Virus record (IMG/VR): IMGVR_UViG_3300037258_000514
Coordinates: 1-64,000 of that record
From: a virus
Length of the DNA stretch: 64,000 bases
Strand: one strand, 5' to 3'
Shown here: in pieces, positions 4,312-61,220 of the stretch
Layout of the letters: the number at the start of each line of letters is the position of its first letter
Position numbering within the stretch: the first letter of the stretch is position 1
Notes under the pieces: model-generated
Seen by the model: only the letters and a program-made list of their open reading frames with translations
Told to the model about the DNA's origin: nothing
Databases searched by the model: none
Position numbers and translations under genes: made by a program

Positions 4312-4544
4312 CATTTAACCCGGATGGTCCTCCCGTTGAGCAGGATAGCTTCACTTGTGGACACTGCCAGAGAATAACATTTGTTAAACCTGGACAGAGA
4401 CCGGATGATATTGGTGGATTGTGCAAAGTATGTATGAATTTGATTTGTCCTGAATGTGTTGGTTTAATGGTGTGCGATCCTTTTGAAGAGAAACTAAAAC
4501 GAGCAGAACAACGTGATAGATTTAGACGTCAAGTAGATCTATAG
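4284..4544 (+). CDS. Small zinc-ribbon protein
   Basis: The 86-residue protein has CxxC at Cys25/Cys28, another pair at Cys47/Cys50 and a further Cys55/Cys58, with a basic C-terminal tail. Zinc-ribbon proteins of this size are common among phage structural genes, where they are thought to be minor virion or assembly proteins. A GGAG site precedes the ATG within the end of the upstream gene. The gene ends in TAG. The next start (4560) is in the same frame with no other stop between, so amber readthrough would give a fused protein. The downstream signal peptide and its own upstream purine stretch argue that two separate proteins are normal. Confidence 0.65.
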   Translation: MLRASNYSVTFNPDGPPVEQDSFTCGHCQRITFVKPGQRPDDIGGLCKVCMNLICPECVGLMVCDPFEEKLKRAEQRDRFRRQVDL

Positions 4545-4559
4545 CGGAGTTACTCTAAA

Positions 4560-5108
4560 ATGCAAATTCTTCAGTTTTTCATCTTAACAGCGATATTTAT
4601 ACAATCTGTTATCATTTTGCCGGCTCAACAACTTATTACACAAGCAAAAGCAGTTTCAGTATTAGTTAACAATGATCAAATTATTGGATATTCCTGGGGA
4701 ATCGCTATTCCCAGTAAATACGAACCGACTAAGCAATTAATTTCATGTAAATTTACAAAAGTAGAGAAAGCAAAAGCTAGTAATGTTCTTCTTGTTAAAA
4801 CGTGCCTCAACAAAACGATTAATATTTATTTCACAAGTGAAGATAGTTTTGTATGCAAGACTCCATGTTCTTTTGAGGGTACGACATTTAATTGGAATGA
4901 TGAAGTACGTTGGGCGCCCGACGGCACAAACTACCGAGTTGTTAATTCCGAAATACTCGTAGTATTTGGTAGTTTTACTGATCCATCAGGCACAATGATT
5001 CCAGCAGCTGCAAATATATCATTTAGAACTTGGCCAACAAATTATCAAGATTACAATTTCCCGATTCTTATGGGCGGAACATTTGGCGTTGAACTAGGTC
5101 AAAAATAA
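4560..5108 (+). CDS. Exported protein of unknown function
   Basis: The 182-residue product begins with a hydrophobic stretch (about residues 5-22) followed by Pro-Ala-Gln-Gln, a plausible Sec signal peptide with a cleavage site near 23. The rest is beta-rich with four cysteines (two in Cys-Lys-Thr-Pro-Cys) that could form disulphides after export. I recognise no family. The stop overlaps the next ATG (TAATG). Exported proteins are unexpected inside a phage tail-fibre cluster, because virion proteins normally assemble in the cytoplasm. It may act on the host envelope or be a moron gene. Confidence 0.55.
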   Translation: MQILQFFILTAIFIQSVIILPAQQLITQAKAVSVLVNNDQIIGYSWGIAIPSKYEPTKQLISCKFTKVEKAKASNVLLVKTCLNKTINIYFTSEDSFVCKTPCSFEGTTFNWNDEVRWAPDGTNYRVVNSEILVVFGSFTDPSGTMIPAAANISFRTWPTNYQDYNFPILMGGTFGVELGQK

Positions 5109-36193: not shown

Positions 36194-36499
36194 ATGGCGA
36201 TTAGAAATAGTCAAGACATTACACTAGTTGTTTTTTCAGGACAACCAAATGTAAGAGTTTCGCAAGACATTACACTAGTTGTTTTTTCAGGACAACCAAA
36301 TGTAAGAGTTTCGCAAGACATTACACTAGTTGCTTATACGAGACTTTTTGGTCCTGCAACACAGCTACTTACATTTACTGATCCTGGATTCGGTTTTAAG
36401 CCTGTGATACGAAGAAATCAAGGATTATTTCAAACGGCAAGTACTTTAGTATATCCAACAACACGAAAAGTATTTCCGATTGTATTTTGTGTAACATAG
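36194..36499 (+). CDS. QD-repeat protein, likely minor tail component
   Basis: The 101-residue product begins with three units of Ser-Gln-Asp-Ile-Thr-Leu-Val. The first two are complete 17-residue units coded by identical 51-bp DNA repeats. Similar 'R.sQ...lv' repeats lie at the N-terminus of the second distal tail protein (27893), which also follows a lectin-like gene. The C-terminal half has no known motif. The gene ends in TAG, in frame with the lipoprotein gene at 36509. Confidence 0.5.
   Translation: MAIRNSQDITLVVFSGQPNVRVSQDITLVVFSGQPNVRVSQDITLVAYTRLFGPATQLLTFTDPGFGFKPVIRRNQGLFQTASTLVYPTTRKVFPIVFCVT
36212..36332 (+). repeat. 51-bp direct tandem repeat inside a coding region
   Basis: Two identical 51-bp units (36212-36262, 36263-36313) are followed by 19 bases of a third. 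The unit is a multiple of three, so copy number can change without breaking the frame. Exact identity implies a recent duplication or ongoing homogenisation. Confidence 0.85.
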
Positions 36500-40812: not shown

Positions 40813-40840
40813 TTGACATTGGACCCTCAATTTTTATATT
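40813..40840 (+). promoter_or_regulatory. Sigma-70-type promoter for the PTH2/tRNA transcript
   Basis: TTGACA (40813-40818) and TATATT (40835-40840) are separated by 16 bases, close to the bacterial housekeeping consensus. It directly follows a terminator. The expected start near 40847 leaves only about 10 bases before the ATG at 40858, so the first message is nearly leaderless. Confidence 0.75.
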
Positions 40841-40857
40841 ATTACGCTATGACATAG

Positions 40858-41328
40858 ATGAATCAGAACGCCCCGAATCCTGCCGATAAATACGTGTATC
40901 TCTTCGTCCGCCAAGATCTACCAATTCAACACCAAATTGTTCAATCCAATCACGCCACTCATATGATGGCTTCGATTCGCCCGGAAGAGTGCGTGCCCAA
41001 TATCGTACTTATTGGTGTGCCCGACTTAAACGCTCTTCTTCGTGTGGCGCAGAAGCTTAGAGCTAATCAAATTCCTCACTACGAGTGGGTCGAACCAGAT
41101 TTTGATTTAGGTTTTACTTCAATTGCTACTGCTCCGATTACTGGAGAGAAGCGTCAAGTTTTGAAGAACTATAGACTTTATTCCCCTGGAACCGTTGCGG
41201 TAAACGGCGTCGCTTGTATAGACCAGCCAATCCGCGCAGCTTGTCTCTTAACTGAGGACAGGGGAGCCAGTGCCCGAGTAGCTCAACAGCAAGAGCAGCC
41301 CGGTCTAAACGGGATGGCTGAAGGTTAA
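40858..41328 (+). CDS. Peptidyl-tRNA hydrolase 2-like protein
   Basis: Residues about 11-115 follow the PTH2/Bit1 pattern: Tyr-Val-Tyr-Leu-Phe-Val-Arg-Gln-Asp-Leu, then Gln-Ser-Asn-His-Ala-Thr-His in place of QCSHA, and Ile-Val-Leu-Ile-Gly-Val-Pro-Asp. A helix, Ile-Pro-His-Tyr and a final 'siataPi...' strand come next. Family members release peptides from stalled tRNAs, and some phage copies are of unknown activity; the invariant Cys-Ser is Ser-Asn here. The last 40 residues have no PTH2 counterpart, and the frame ends inside the first tRNA gene. Being co-transcribed with tRNAs supports a translation-related role. Confidence 0.55.
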   Translation: MNQNAPNPADKYVYLFVRQDLPIQHQIVQSNHATHMMASIRPEECVPNIVLIGVPDLNALLRVAQKLRANQIPHYEWVEPDFDLGFTSIATAPITGEKRQVLKNYRLYSPGTVAVNGVACIDQPIRAACLLTEDRGASARVAQQQEQPGLNGMAEG

Positions 41329-41347
41329 AGTCCTTCCTTGGGCACCA
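41272..41347 (+). tRNA. tRNA with CUA anticodon (amber suppressor)
   Basis: A 76-base cloverleaf with encoded CCA: acceptor GCCCGAG/CTTGGGC, TA, D-arm GCTC/GAGC with loop AACAGCAA, anticodon stem GCCCG/CGGGA (one G-A mismatch), loop GTCTAAA, variable TGGCT, T-arm GAAGG/CCTTC with loop TTAAAGT, then A and CCA. The loop centre after U33 is CUA, which reads the codon UAG. The D-loop lacks GG and the T-loop lacks the usual TTC, a paired loss. The amino acid cannot be told. The 5' two thirds overlap the end of the PTH2-like frame, whose TAA lies in the T-loop. Confidence 0.8.
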
Positions 41348-41350
41348 TAT

Positions 41351-41400
41351 AGGGCGGGCTAGCGCGCTAGCTAGGGGCTTCAGTGCCTCCCGCCCTACCA
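41351..41400 (+). ncRNA. 50-nt tRNA-like element lacking D and anticodon arms
   Basis: Acceptor AGGGCGG (41351-41357) pairs over 7 bp with CCGCCCT (41390-41396), followed by A and CCA. A T-arm GGGGC/GCCTC has loop TTCAGT. Where D and anticodon arms should be is one 5-bp hairpin, GCTAG/CTAGC with loop CGCG. It lies in the 58-base gap between two full tRNAs and has the 3' end of a tRNA. It cannot decode. It might be a degenerated tRNA or a tRNA mimic processed with its neighbours. Confidence 0.55.
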
Positions 41401-41405
41401 GATAT

Positions 41406-41486
41406 GCCGCTGTAGCTCAGATGGGCTGTATCCAGAGCAGCTTCCTTTTAGGGAGCAGGTCGGTGGTTCGATTCCATCCAGCGGCT
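41406..41486 (+). tRNA. tRNA with UUU anticodon (Lys-type), enlarged D-loop
   Basis: Acceptor GCCGCTG/CAGCGGC (7 bp), TA, D-stem GCTC/GAGC with a 16-base loop (normal is 7-11), anticodon stem GCTTC/GGAGC, loop CTTTTAG with UUU, and T-arm GGTGG/CCATC with loop TTCGATT. No CCA is encoded and the discriminator base is T, unlike ordinary tRNA-Lys. Function is likely but these oddities leave room for a decayed gene. Confidence 0.7.
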
Positions 41487-41502
41487 CTCTTTAAAATCGT
41501 GC

Positions 41503-41530
41503 GTCGGTTCGAACCCGACATGGCGCTCCA
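41503..41530 (+). pseudogene. 3' half of a tRNA gene
   Basis: A perfect T-arm, GTCGG-TTCGAAC-CCGAC (41503-41519), is followed by ATGGCGC, T and CCA (41520-41530). No matching 5' acceptor (GCGCCAT) lies within the preceding 100 bases. It is therefore an isolated 3' half, either a relic of a deleted tRNA gene or a phage attachment core of the type that restores a host tRNA. No integrase is present in the window. Confidence 0.65.
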
Positions 41531-42977: not shown

Positions 42978-43175
42978 CTATCGAGCGGCGAGAATTGCTT
43001 TCTTAACTTCGCTTACAGGAACTGCTCCTGTTGCATTCTTCTGTTCAAGCATTAACTTAAAAAAGACTGAGAAGTTTTGATTTAATTCCGCGATCTGGGC
43101 TGTCGTCTCAACACGAAGTGCAGCTTCCATACTGTTTAGTGATTTAAACTGATTTCTAATTTCGTTAGATGTCAT
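42978..43175 (-). CDS. Small helical protein, unknown
   Basis: A 65-residue product, helical and Ala/Glu-rich, with Gln-Asn-Phe-Ser-Val-Phe-Phe-Lys in the middle. It starts on the stop of the preceding nuclease-QueD gene (ATGA overlap) and ends with TAG immediately followed by TAA, three bases before the helicase ATG. It may be a helicase partner or loader fragment, judged by position only. Confidence 0.55.
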   Translation of the reverse strand: MTSNEIRNQFKSLNSMEAALRVETTAQIAELNQNFSVFFKLMLEQKNATGAVPVSEVKKAILAAR

Positions 43176-44326
43176 TCTAGCTCCTTTGGTAAAACTAATA
43201 GCCCACTGTTTGTATAAACTAAGGAATACATTGTAGTTGATGTTAGTTCAAATGTTGCAGAGCACTTTCTTGTTTCCTCAACACAACATTTTACTAAGTG
43301 CACTCCTGTTCCTGTAAGTTGTTTTGGACCGACATGCTCAACAAGAAATTTAGCGATATTTTCAGCTGTAGGATTAAATGGAGTAATTACAACAGTTTTA
43401 TCAAGAGCCTTAAATGTTTTACTCCAAGGATCTTTCTTCCATATTAAAAATCTATGATCCCAGTTTGTTTCTAGCCATTGGCATAGAAGTGTGTTAATTA
43501 CTCCAAAATCAATTACTCTTCCTATTGAATCTAGAGAAGAAGCAACGCATGTAAAGTGTATTCTATAATTATGTCCATGAGCGTGGGAGCAAGCCCCTTC
43601 GTGTCCATATACTCTATGACCTGAAGAGAAATCGTGATAACGAGTAGCTGTAATTAAACTGTTATGAATTTTCTTAGCTATCCATAAGGGAATATCATGC
43701 TCCCAAAGTATTTCGACTTCCCATCCCTTTGCTTTGATAAAGCTAAGTCTTTGTTTTTCGTATGAAATACTTTTCTCTAAAACTTGTTTATCTACAATTT
43801 TATCAAATCCACATATCGAGCAGTTATGCCAAAAACATCCATTAACTTCGAGAATTTTCTTCTCATTTAGTGAGGCAAAATCTACTTGGTATCTTCCGAT
43901 ATGATATTGCCTTTTCCATCCCTGAAGATATTTCGCAACTAAATCTTCTACTTTTGATGTTTTTCTTCTGCCAACTTCAGGAGAATGAAAAATCCAATGT
44001 GCACCATTTTTTAGTGCTGTTGAAATCTTCTTAGCTATTTCAGGATCTTTAGCTATATTCTTCTCGCCATGCTGATATCCTACTTTAGGCATAGAAGTTC
44101 CGTAAATACCTAAGTATGTTTTTCCTTTTGTTCCGTGTCCTTGTTTATAAACAGGTCCGGATTTTACTTCGTGCGACAATCTTATAATTTTTGTTCCGCA
44201 TCCACAGGAACATTCTACTTCTATGGGTGTTAAGCATAAATTGCATATAAACGATTTAATATCGTTAGCTAGAAAACGGTCCTCGCAGTATTTGCAACTA
44301 CGCTCTTTCGGTGTAGTTAAACGCAT
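43172..44326 (-). CDS. queD: Vsr-like nuclease fused to QueD (6-carboxytetrahydropterin synthase)
   Basis: The 384-residue protein has two parts. Residues 1-225 carry CxxC pairs (11/14, 28/31), a middle DNA-binding region, and a Vsr/EDxHD-type nuclease: Val-Asp-Phe (148-150), Asn-Gly-Cys-Phe-Trp-His-Asn-Cys (162-169) and Trp-Glu-His-Asp (208-211). Residues 227-384 are QueD: Ser-Ser-Gly-His237-Arg, Cys246 with His250-Gly-His252, Trp-Asp-His-Arg near 294 and Val-Glu-Glu-Thr near 355. QueD makes the precursor for 7-deazaguanine. The link between domains is direct. A homing nuclease that entered the queD start in frame is the simplest explanation. Confidence 0.8.
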   Translation of the reverse strand: MRLTTPKERSCKYCEDRFLANDIKSFICNLCLTPIEVECSCGCGTKIIRLSHEVKSGPVYKQGHGTKGKTYLGIYGTSMPKVGYQHGEKNIAKDPEIAKKISTALKNGAHWIFHSPEVGRRKTSKVEDLVAKYLQGWKRQYHIGRYQVDFASLNEKKILEVNGCFWHNCSICGFDKIVDKQVLEKSISYEKQRLSFIKAKGWEVEILWEHDIPLWIAKKIHNSLITATRYHDFSSGHRVYGHEGACSHAHGHNYRIHFTCVASSLDSIGRVIDFGVINTLLCQWLETNWDHRFLIWKKDPWSKTFKALDKTVVITPFNPTAENIAKFLVEHVGPKQLTGTGVHLVKCCVEETRKCSATFELTSTTMYSLVYTNSGLLVLPKELE

Positions 44327-58709: not shown

Positions 58710-61220
58710 CTAGAAATAGCTCCCAGTAAATTTAGTTAGAGTTTCCAAATCGCACCAGTTATATCCTACTCGCGCTTCTGTCATAAGTGGTACCGTTACA
58801 AAAGGAAATCTTGGTTTAACTATTTCAACTCCTATCGTAGTAATATACGATTCCGTTTTATCTGAATCAGGTATCGCGAAGATTAGATCGTCATGAACAT
58901 TAACCCGAGGTAATAAATTCATATCTGTCTCAATTGCCATCTCAAATAGAGCGTTTTGGGCTTCTAACACAAGCTCTGCAGCAGTACCTTGAACAGGTGT
59001 ATTAATTACTTCGTTTCCAGGTAGTACTTCGTTCCTCTCTCTGCCTGTTAGTGAAGCTACCGTTCCCGTAGCTTTATACCTTCTAAACTGTCCGTCAACC
59101 CAAGCTTTTGTTACTTTATATTCTGTCCAGAATTCATGCAAGATCTCTTCGCAAATACGAAGCGGGATTCCCGTCCTTGTAGCAATAGATTTAGCAATTG
59201 ATCCATAAAAGCTGGCAAATACAAAATCAGTTTTAATGATCGTGCGCCCGCCTTTTAGTATGTGCTTCTCTGTTGTTTCTCCTGTCTTTTGTTTTAGACG
59301 ATCCATATAAGCCGGATAGGCTTTAATAATTCTATACAGCCATTTCCAGTGGATATCGTCATCATCTACAAAAGCTTTCTTTAAGACAGGATCTTTACTA
59401 AACATTGCGATAACTCTGCCTTCAAGTTGTCCATAGTCAAAAGCAGCAAACATATAACCAGGAGGAGGGATTATCTGACGTCTAACCTCTCTGTGCTTTC
59501 GTTTCGGCCAATTCTGCATGTTGGGATCGGCGCCAGAGAGGCGATAAGTGTTTGTGTGAACTACAGTATATTGTCCGTGGATAAGTCCATCTACACCGAT
59601 AATACGTCCCTTTAAAATCGGATCAACGTAAGTGGATTTTTGTTTTTCAACTTCTCTGTATTCAAGAGTTAAATCAATTAATCTACAACTTTTCTTCTCC
59701 GCTAATTTTTCAAGTTCGTCTGCTTCTGTAACATAGTTTATTTTTCCCGCTGCAGTGACGTTCGTTGGAACTTGATAGTGATAATACTTATCCAATACGT
59801 AAGCTAAAGTTTGACCTGAGGAAATACTAAATATTTTGCTTTCTTTTTTCTCAAAATCTCTAACTTCAGGTAATAATGAAGCTTCTTTTTCACATGCTTG
59901 AGATTTCTTAAATAAGTCTTTCTGTAGCGATTCACTCTCCTTAATGTCGTAGTTTAATCCCTGTACTTCCATTGCAACAGTTGATTGCACTGTTTGAACA
60001 CTGCGTCGGTAATTAGGCAATTGAACAGGAGGAAGCATTTCAAGCATTTGGTAATATAACAATGCTTCAGCCCAAGCATCCAGCGCATTATACTCTAAAA
60101 CTTGTTCAGGAGAATATTCAGATAAGCGCTCTTTATCAAGCGGTCCTAATCCCTGTCCTGCAAGTGCGTTGTTTGTTAACTGCTTTACATCAATACCGAA
60201 ATAAATACGTGATAGAACATCTAAACTACCAAGTCCTTTTCTCTTGTGAAGTAAACGTGCAAGAATTTCTGTATCATGTAATTTCTGTTTGTAGTTCTTT
60301 GTCAAACCTACGATCCAAGGAAGTTCCATACTAGCATGTTGTGCTATCCATTCTTTATCGGATAACATCATTTCAGTTAGTACTTCCATTCCCCACGGAT
60401 CTAAATCACCCGGCCATCTAACTTTGAATGAAAACGTGAGTATTCCATCAGAACATCCACAAGTAAGTAAACGCGCGTCACGTTGGTAATGTCGAAACTT
60501 AAACGTTTCAAAATCTATTGCATAAGGACTTCTTAATTTATGAAAAAGATTAAGAACTTCTTGCTTTGTTTTTGGATAGAGTATTTCTTTTGGGGGAATT
60601 TTAATCTTTGGCGGAGCTTGAAATTTGGTCTTAACGTTCTCAAAGAAGTTTATAAGGTCATTTTGGAAAAGAGGCAGTACTGTATTAACTGTACTTCCAT
60701 CTGCATAATCTTCTCTCTCAGCACGTGCGACGTAAGATGGATGAAAAGTAGATGTAAACCAGCAAACGTGATCTCCAACTATAACAGGAAAAGGAATTCC
60801 TCTTATTTTAGAGATTGTAGGAGCATCCGGCCAAAAATAATTGAGTGCCTCATTTCCAATACCAAGAATGGCATGGGGACGGAGACTTAGGATATCCTGT
60901 TTAAGAAAGTTGGCACAACAGCTTACCTCACGTGGTGTTGGAGTTCTATTCTTTGGTGGACGACATCTTACTGTGTTCTGCCAATAAAGCTTTTTCTCCC
61001 AGTTAGGAGGGAAGTTTTCACGAAGAAACTGTCCTGTCTTTCCAATAAACGGAAACCCTTTATCGTCTTCGGTTTGTCCAGGAGCTTCTCCAATTACCAA
61101 TACTTTGTAAGGACTTTGCTCCTTCGCTATTGCCATAGGCATGCGAGGGGTCTTTAATATTGGCCACTCCTGTTTCAAGGAGCAGGAATTGCAGCTGTCG
61201 AATTGTATTAGTCCGGGCAA
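58710..61220 (-). CDS. polA: DNA polymerase A with N-terminal uracil-DNA glycosylase domain
   Basis: The 836-residue protein has three parts. Residues 1-195 are a family 4-type uracil-DNA glycosylase: Gly-Glu-Ala-Pro-Gly (44-48), His-Pro-Ser-Tyr (160-163) and four Cys (10, 13, 86, 102) with the spacing of its Fe-S cluster. Residues 230-390 are a 3'-5' exonuclease (Asp236-Phe-Glu238, His-Asp-Thr-Glu, Tyr-Asn-Ala-Leu-Asp). The rest is family A polymerase: motif A Ala-Phe-Asp-Tyr-Gly-Gln-Leu-Glu-Gly-Arg, motif B Lys-Thr-Asp-Phe-Val-Phe-Ala-Ser-Phe-Tyr-Gly and motif C Val-His-Asp-Asp. It copies the phage genome and may sense or remove uracil. Confidence 0.9.
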   Translation of the reverse strand: MPGLIQFDSCNSCSLKQEWPILKTPRMPMAIAKEQSPYKVLVIGEAPGQTEDDKGFPFIGKTGQFLRENFPPNWEKKLYWQNTVRCRPPKNRTPTPREVSCCANFLKQDILSLRPHAILGIGNEALNYFWPDAPTISKIRGIPFPVIVGDHVCWFTSTFHPSYVARAEREDYADGSTVNTVLPLFQNDLINFFENVKTKFQAPPKIKIPPKEILYPKTKQEVLNLFHKLRSPYAIDFETFKFRHYQRDARLLTCGCSDGILTFSFKVRWPGDLDPWGMEVLTEMMLSDKEWIAQHASMELPWIVGLTKNYKQKLHDTEILARLLHKRKGLGSLDVLSRIYFGIDVKQLTNNALAGQGLGPLDKERLSEYSPEQVLEYNALDAWAEALLYYQMLEMLPPVQLPNYRRSVQTVQSTVAMEVQGLNYDIKESESLQKDLFKKSQACEKEASLLPEVRDFEKKESKIFSISSGQTLAYVLDKYYHYQVPTNVTAAGKINYVTEADELEKLAEKKSCRLIDLTLEYREVEKQKSTYVDPILKGRIIGVDGLIHGQYTVVHTNTYRLSGADPNMQNWPKRKHREVRRQIIPPPGYMFAAFDYGQLEGRVIAMFSKDPVLKKAFVDDDDIHWKWLYRIIKAYPAYMDRLKQKTGETTEKHILKGGRTIIKTDFVFASFYGSIAKSIATRTGIPLRICEEILHEFWTEYKVTKAWVDGQFRRYKATGTVASLTGRERNEVLPGNEVINTPVQGTAAELVLEAQNALFEMAIETDMNLLPRVNVHDDLIFAIPDSDKTESYITTIGVEIVKPRFPFVTVPLMTEARVGYNWCDLETLTKFTGSYF

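Follow-up and report, generated by a model that had tools for sequence, protein, structure and literature searches.

In the viral genome record IMGVR_UViG_3300037258_000514 (IMG/VR), positions 1 to 64,000 of which form the 64,000-nucleotide stretch analysed here (hereafter the window), a transfer RNA (tRNA) gene with the amber-reading anticodon CUA overlaps the 3′ end of a gene for a PTH2-fold protein, and the third codon of that gene is an in-frame TAG. The conserved early TAG, its near-exclusive identity among the stops found at this place, the co-occurrence with tRNAs of anticodon CUA (tRNA-CUA), the PTH2 fold and an accompanying HD fold close to a tRNA-processing enzyme together make it very likely that the suppressor tRNA serves as the key to an amber lock, which would couple the synthesis of a tRNA-3′-end enzyme module to the presence of a working tRNA-CUA. 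The readthrough target supported by these comparisons is codon 3 (40855–40857) of the gene that overlaps the tRNA.

The suppressor tRNA and the gene it overlaps

The amber suppressor tRNA lies at 41272–41347 on the plus strand. A first-pass annotation, made from the letters alone, had described it as a cloverleaf with a 7-bp acceptor stem, a 4-bp D stem, a 5-bp T stem and an encoded CCA, and folding bore out each of these elements. ARAGORN reads the anticodon as CUA, and the covariance-model check that had been proposed, carried out with Rfam RF00005, returned 54.6 bits (E 5.4e-9) against a gathering score of 29, so that the tRNA can be taken as genuine. The ARAGORN label ‘Pyl’ denotes merely the anticodon CUA and is given to every CUA tRNA. 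The anticodon stem contains a G27-A43 mismatch. The complete record is a phage of 175,952 bases (~176 kb) with ~32 tRNA genes, 30 of which are clustered at 81–98.8 kb on the minus strand; the suppressor tRNA stands apart from this main cluster, on the plus strand and in a small separate locus.

The open reading frame (ORF) overlapping the tRNA was listed as 40858–41328, and its TAA stop (41326–41328) sits inside the T loop, as had been noticed. The triplets ATG-ACA-TAG (40849–40857, plus strand) precede the listed ATG directly and in frame, and to judge from the conservation of the early TAG in relatives, the PTH2-like gene really starts nine bases upstream of 40858. With the amber read, the gene covers 40849–41328 (plus strand) and 159 codons. 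Because of these triplets, the window does have one gene with an internal TAG; the first-pass annotation had seen no evident one in the structural genes.

The conserved domain of the PTH2-like protein stops near 41185, and the tail of the gene extends into the tRNA. Throughout the window clade the frame enters the tRNA with no intervening stop, and excision of the tRNA from the transcript would therefore sever the messenger RNA (mRNA). Upstream, a promoter-like pair was read from the sequence at 40813–40842 (plus strand; TTGACA at 40813–40818 and a −10 element, TATATT/TATTAT, within 40835–40842). This pair terminates 6–8 nt 5′ of the ATG, and TTGACA and −10 elements are spaced alike before the ATG in two relatives (L015 and L016). 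Members of the window clade often have such a pair ending 6–8 nt before the ATG in place of a Shine-Dalgarno site, and the transcript of their PTH2-like gene may be a leaderless mRNA.

The early amber in related phages

Early ambers recur far beyond the window. In two IMG/VR relatives the conserved domain is preceded in frame by ATG-TCA-TAG in one and ATG-ACA-TAG in the other, and each has a tRNA-CUA where the gene ends. Similar starts are present in the GenBank phages Arash (ATG-CTG-TAG), ME3 (ATG-ACT-TAG), pT24 (ATG-AAA-TAG), CBB (ATG-GCA-CAA-TAG) and LR756511 (ATG-ACT-CAC-TAG), and in GAP32 and XbC2, where the amber is codon 4. Where early-amber PTH2-like genes are annotated, the start has been placed 3′ of the TAG. 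A profile built from seven PTH2-like members yielded 70 IMG/VR loci, and in total 71 of 84 PTH2-like loci contain an in-frame TAG shortly after the start codon, a count to which L076 (GTG-CGT-TAG behind a Shine-Dalgarno site) was added by eye. The amber is codon 3 in 45 of these 71 loci, codon 4 in 15 and one of codons 5–13 in the remainder, and a Shine-Dalgarno site precedes the start codon in most of them. In L063 the reading frame is broken. Phages of Salmonella, Acinetobacter, Cronobacter, Xanthomonas, Stenotrophomonas and Tenacibaculum hold the amber, as do many metagenomic phages. Since many loci are related, they were also counted by group: without L076, clustering at 90% identity gave 55 groups, 42 of them with an amber, and clustering at 70% gave 40, of which 29 have one. 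PTH2 domains, some of them found via the HD gene described below, were reduced to a non-redundant set of 92 for a tree. The amber occurs in 76 of its tips, is present in both branches of the deepest split and changes state at least 12 times; with few alignment columns, many forks are uncertain.

The identity of the early stop was assessed under a strict rule, which called for a 4-nt Shine-Dalgarno match and an ATG, with an in-frame stop no more than five codons on and the domain shortly after it. Under this rule 63 PTH2-like genes had TAG, one had TGA and none had TAA; the corresponding numbers for the HD gene were 23, 1 and 0. A conserved in-frame stop of one identity ahead of a conserved domain, as expected of programmed readthrough, is thus present. 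A purine 3′ of UAG favours suppression, and a purine follows the early TAG in 70 of 71 loci, whereas the ordinary TAG stops of the window phage have one in 27 of 48 cases. When the genomes of XacN1 (320 kb) and Arash (180 kb) were scanned for a Shine-Dalgarno site, an ATG, an early stop and a long frame, each gave one candidate only, which was its HD-PTH2 or PTH2-like gene. The amber genes of GAP32, pT24 and ME3 were missed by this strict scan because their upstream regions misfit the Shine-Dalgarno pattern.

A genome scan for further early-TAG genes gave no other convincing one, and a candidate at 146219 in G000 was weak and is not claimed. The window phage showed no DNA similarity to named phages, a scan for close relatives using the neighbouring helicase turned up none, and one peptide pattern run against cellular genomes gave no confirmed relative there, which, for one such scan, does not imply absence. 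As a separate observation, additional candidate amber-locked genes (ATG-ACA/ACG-TAG) occur near the locus in other phages (L036 5787–6248, L037 5960–6442, L041 5734–5940, L088 6241–6444, L044 5419, L048 3507 and L065 4789), and include a ~150-residue protein with no family match and a small cysteine-rich protein matching DUF3222.

An HD-domain partner gene

In many phages an HD-domain gene (phrog_14850) adjoins or is fused to the PTH2-like gene; no such partner was detected in the genome of the window phage. Scanning with an HD profile yielded many more loci in which both genes have an early amber. In counts over 138 loci, which are automatic and partly redundant, the HD gene is present in 88, with an early TAG in 44 and only an internal TAG in 15 (59 of 88 with a TAG). 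Both genes are present in 75 loci, 31 of which have an early TAG in both and 67 a TAG in one or both. The two genes are fused in XacN1 and RAS14, where a single codon-3 TAG lies ahead of both domains and the annotated starts are 3′ of it. In GAP32-like phages the HD gene has its TAG at about codon 47, and GAP32_398 and GAP32_399 are the halves of one gene. A TAG at a similar place is found in the HD gene of L064, L069–L071 and L076, and one near the start in L038 and L055. The HD gene of Arash has no TAG; it begins before the PTH2-like gene has ended, so that translational coupling is possible.

Co-occurrence with tRNA-CUA

By our tally, 63 of the 71 amber records contain a tRNA-CUA, counting those up to 4 kb away as well as those farther off in the same record; one further amber record, L099, was left out of this search. 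Eight of the 13 amber-free loci showed no tRNA-CUA and five have one. RaK2, phiKp_21 and Hallingskeid, from related lineages and among these eight, have neither an early amber nor a detected tRNA-CUA; a fourth of the eight is the amber-free locus L049, whose record has 51 tRNA matches of which none was read as CUA. The custom tRNA-CUA scan recovered the second tRNA-CUA of L027 only after loosening. The suppressor tRNAs themselves are mixed, with the discriminator base being A in 28, G in 17 and T in 11 among 64.

Two side observations concern these tRNAs. The record of L049 (G003; L163, L165) has tRNAs with anticodon TCA, which reads UGA, and none with CTA. In a phage of the window clade, a tRNA-CUA with a long extra variable arm (L206; G006 93164–93267, minus strand) was found by Rfam and missed by ARAGORN.

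Predicted functions of the two proteins

Both sequence and fold place the protein in the PTH2 family. Pfam PTH2 (PF01981) was found in six of seven family members (best E 3.1e-6), the window protein itself falling below the cut-off, and the AlphaFold model of the PTH2-like protein matches 3erj (Z 14.2) and Bit1 (13.7), the next unrelated structure scoring 4.3. Of the cellular Pth2 motifs, R-x-D and Q-x-x-H-A are retained, and the lysine loop and D-A-G-x-T are altered. The HD model (pLDDT 94.8) is closest, at the level of fold only, to ‘tRNA processing enzyme’ entries (3wfo, Z 14.8), with PhnZ second at 10.9; we take 3wfo to be the Aquifex tRNA nucleotidyltransferase. The two folds therefore both point to tRNA 3′ ends, and we infer for the PTH2/HD module an activity there, in recycling or repair. 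Phage PTH2 has been proposed to take part in ribosome rescue or RNA repair (Iyer et al., 2021; PMC7824862). PADLOC gave a single weak match only, to a side gene (E 0.011).

The proposed amber lock and alternative explanations

The lock would operate as follows. The opening codons of the PTH2-fold gene are ATG, one or two others and UAG, and the same holds in other phages for the HD partner or the fused HD-PTH2 gene. Release factor 1 would halt ribosomes at this UAG unless a charged tRNA-CUA decodes it, and the enzyme would therefore be made only once the tRNA had been transcribed, processed and charged. UAG readthrough in the PTH2 and HD genes, as inferred here, would make a tRNA-3′-end activity depend on the condition of the tRNA pool of the phage; the simplest form would be a feedback loop, and the lock might also act as a timer or an interlock. 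The amber of the PTH2-like gene falls within an N-terminal tail that varies, so that any residue should be tolerated there, in keeping with how mixed the suppressor tRNAs are. A more specific and tentative version is an interlock on the tRNA pool, in which the suppressor tRNA signals that the phage tRNAs have been made, carry their CCA ends and are charged, and only at that point allows the PTH2/HD proteins, acting on tRNA 3′ ends, to be produced; the targets of these proteins may in turn include the suppressor tRNA itself or the adjacent CCA-ended mini-tRNA-like RNA described below, which would close the loop.

Several observations count against the amber lock. The D loop of the window suppressor tRNA (AACAGCAA) has no G18G19 and its T loop (TTAAAGT) has no C56, so that the usual elbow contacts are absent, and we are unsure of its activity. 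No tRNA-CUA was found in seven amber records, three of which are short fragments and four large (L047, L083, L084 and L085), and the five amber-free loci with a tRNA-CUA (L060, L066, L068, L079 and L087) depart from the association in the other direction. A possible start lies at or after the TAG in some loci (TAG-ATG in the window and L023; ATT elsewhere). The catalytic residues are kept only in part, which makes the enzymatic role of the PTH2-like protein uncertain. The support is throughout that of comparative sequence analysis.

Two-codon ORFs such as the lambda bar minigenes cause peptidyl-tRNA drop-off and require Pth. It is accordingly conceivable, if improbable, that ATG-NNN-TAG is itself an ORF of two or three codons that acts by drop-off or by downstream reinitiation, the suppressor tRNA being unrelated. 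The Pth2 fold of the protein would suit peptidyl-tRNA drop-off, and in the window and L023 an ATG directly follows the TAG. However, any stop would do for a minigene, yet TAG is used nearly exclusively, and in most loci the stretch from the TAG to the domain is free of start codons (for example, TAG-AAC-AAA-CAC-TGG in Arash). The codon-47 position of the TAG in the GAP32-like HD gene and the co-occurrence of tRNA-CUA with the amber likewise favour the amber lock over a minigene.

The first-pass annotation held that the phage still employs TAG as a stop, and this stands: of the 65 long ORFs in the window 9 end in TAG, and for the whole record the figure is 48 of 227. These 48 ORFs would be exposed to the suppressor tRNA, and low-level readthrough of many such genes with no special target would be a second explanation, though a very improbable one. 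Beyond the ordinary TAG stops the median in-frame extension is nine codons, the next base shows no clear preference, and a single conserved target stands out across phages. The suggestion of limited readthrough of selected genes was sound in principle, but not for the sites named, all three of which appear to be ordinary gene ends. The TAG at 58710 ends a full-length uracil-DNA glycosylase (UDG)/3′-5′ exonuclease/DNA polymerase A protein (PF00476 aligned over 380/381), and a GIY-YIG endonuclease gene comes directly after it; beyond that at 36497 stand GGGAGG and a further ATG; and after that at 4542 another in-frame ORF begins at 4560.

Least credible of all is that the locus is a relic of TAG recoding (genetic code 15) or a step towards it, or that the host reads TAG as sense. 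Recoding phages with a tRNA-CUA are known (PMC10607447, PMC9523058), but a relic would decay, whereas here TAG is kept near the start of two genes and in both halves of the tree and is a stop elsewhere. Whole-genome scans gave no in-frame TAG spread over many genes. Salmonella, Xanthomonas, Acinetobacter, Cronobacter and Tenacibaculum are hosts of cultured members, and none of them is known to depart from the standard code. Neither a step towards recoding nor interference with host termination, both raised in the first pass, is needed to explain the data.

Relation to known systems

The gene prfB (release factor 2) with its frameshift, infC with its AUU start and the lambda bar minigenes are cases of autoregulated translation-factor genes. 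The PTH2/HD module would resemble them in that a gene of the translation machinery has an early decoding obstacle sensed by its own pathway; they rely on a frameshift, a rare start codon or drop-off, whereas here a dedicated suppressor tRNA would be used and feedback is only proposed. In TAG-recoding phages (crAss-like and related, code 15), a phage tRNA-CUA is likewise thought to decode in-frame TAG, but there TAG is sense in many genes, while in the present phages it is a normal stop and lies near the start in one gene or pair only.

The standard-code jumbo phages XacN1 (PMC5852040) and RsoM2USA (PMC8504454) have the same kind of tRNA and are the same kind of phage, and XacN1 belongs to the present set. 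The authors of the XacN1 study were unable to find what its suppressor tRNAs read (PMC5852040), and the RsoM2USA paper merely suggests several potential targets (PMC8504454). In contrast to these papers, which name no specific target, a candidate can be offered here, namely the HD-PTH2 gene with amber codon 3. The PTH2-family proteins of jumbo phages treated by Iyer et al. (PMC7824862) are also alike, and the accessible part of that paper describes no early amber, suppressor tRNA or HD pairing. No description of an early amber in PTH2 or HD genes was found in the literature searched, which included few subscription journals or preprints.

Standard-code phages often carry suppressor tRNAs, and the papers found name no specific target; the conserved candidate now offered can be tested in the cultured phages Arash, ME3, XacN1 and GAP32. 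If the amber lock is true, it would be a natural case of gene control by a dedicated suppressor tRNA, common to many very different phages, and two adjoining tRNA-end proteins under amber locks would suggest a layer of control on tRNA maintenance during infection. Annotation hides such genes, as the TAG either costs the protein its real N-terminus or breaks the gene in two (GAP32_398/399). The short PHROG families phrog_34073 and phrog_26054 look like fragments that arose in this way.

Neighbouring RNA elements and other observations

Directly downstream of the suppressor tRNA, folding and a motif scan identified a mini-tRNA-like element of 51 nt (41350–41400, plus strand), with a 9-bp acceptor-like stem, two hairpins (the second with a TTCAGT hexaloop), a CCA end and no anticodon arm. 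Elements of the same architecture, with largely different stem sequences, lie 3′ of the PTH2-like gene in L015 (2839–2882, 2884–2932), L016 (5381–5432), L024 (4396–4445), L025 (4375–4426), L027 (4381–4430), L028 (4385–4437, 4440–4491) and L053 (4325–4379). They are 44–55 nt long, have a TTNANT hexaloop and were found only beside the PTH2-like gene in one clade. A covariance model was too weak for this search (poor alignment, three pairs), and a custom motif scan was therefore used, which found the element nowhere else in 5.1 Mb on both strands and gave three matches in shuffled sequence. L053 has the element although its gene lacks the early amber and its tRNA-CUA search came up empty, which ties the element to the gene rather than to the tRNA. 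It is possibly a new element and a new RNA family.

The slot of the relatives’ second tRNA-CUA is occupied in the window by a tRNA-like gene (41406–41487, plus strand; Rfam 53.2 bits). By our reading its D loop is long and its anticodon loop, CTTTTAG, reads UUU (Lys); ARAGORN calls it tRNA-Trp via an odd fold with an unusual position 27. Directly after it, 41488–41530 makes up the 3′ half of a tRNA, with T arm, the 3′ side of the acceptor stem and CCA, whose 5′ half is absent, perhaps a tRNA remnant or an attachment site. Another tRNA, at G000 84616–84690 (L010 616–690), has an enlarged anticodon loop in which ARAGORN reads a four-base anticodon (cgat). Finally, two unusual fusions are encoded on the minus strand of the window, one joining a uracil-DNA glycosylase domain to DNA polymerase A (58710–61220) and the other an endonuclease-like/DUF559 region to a 6-pyruvoyl-tetrahydropterin synthase (QueD-like) domain (43172–44326).
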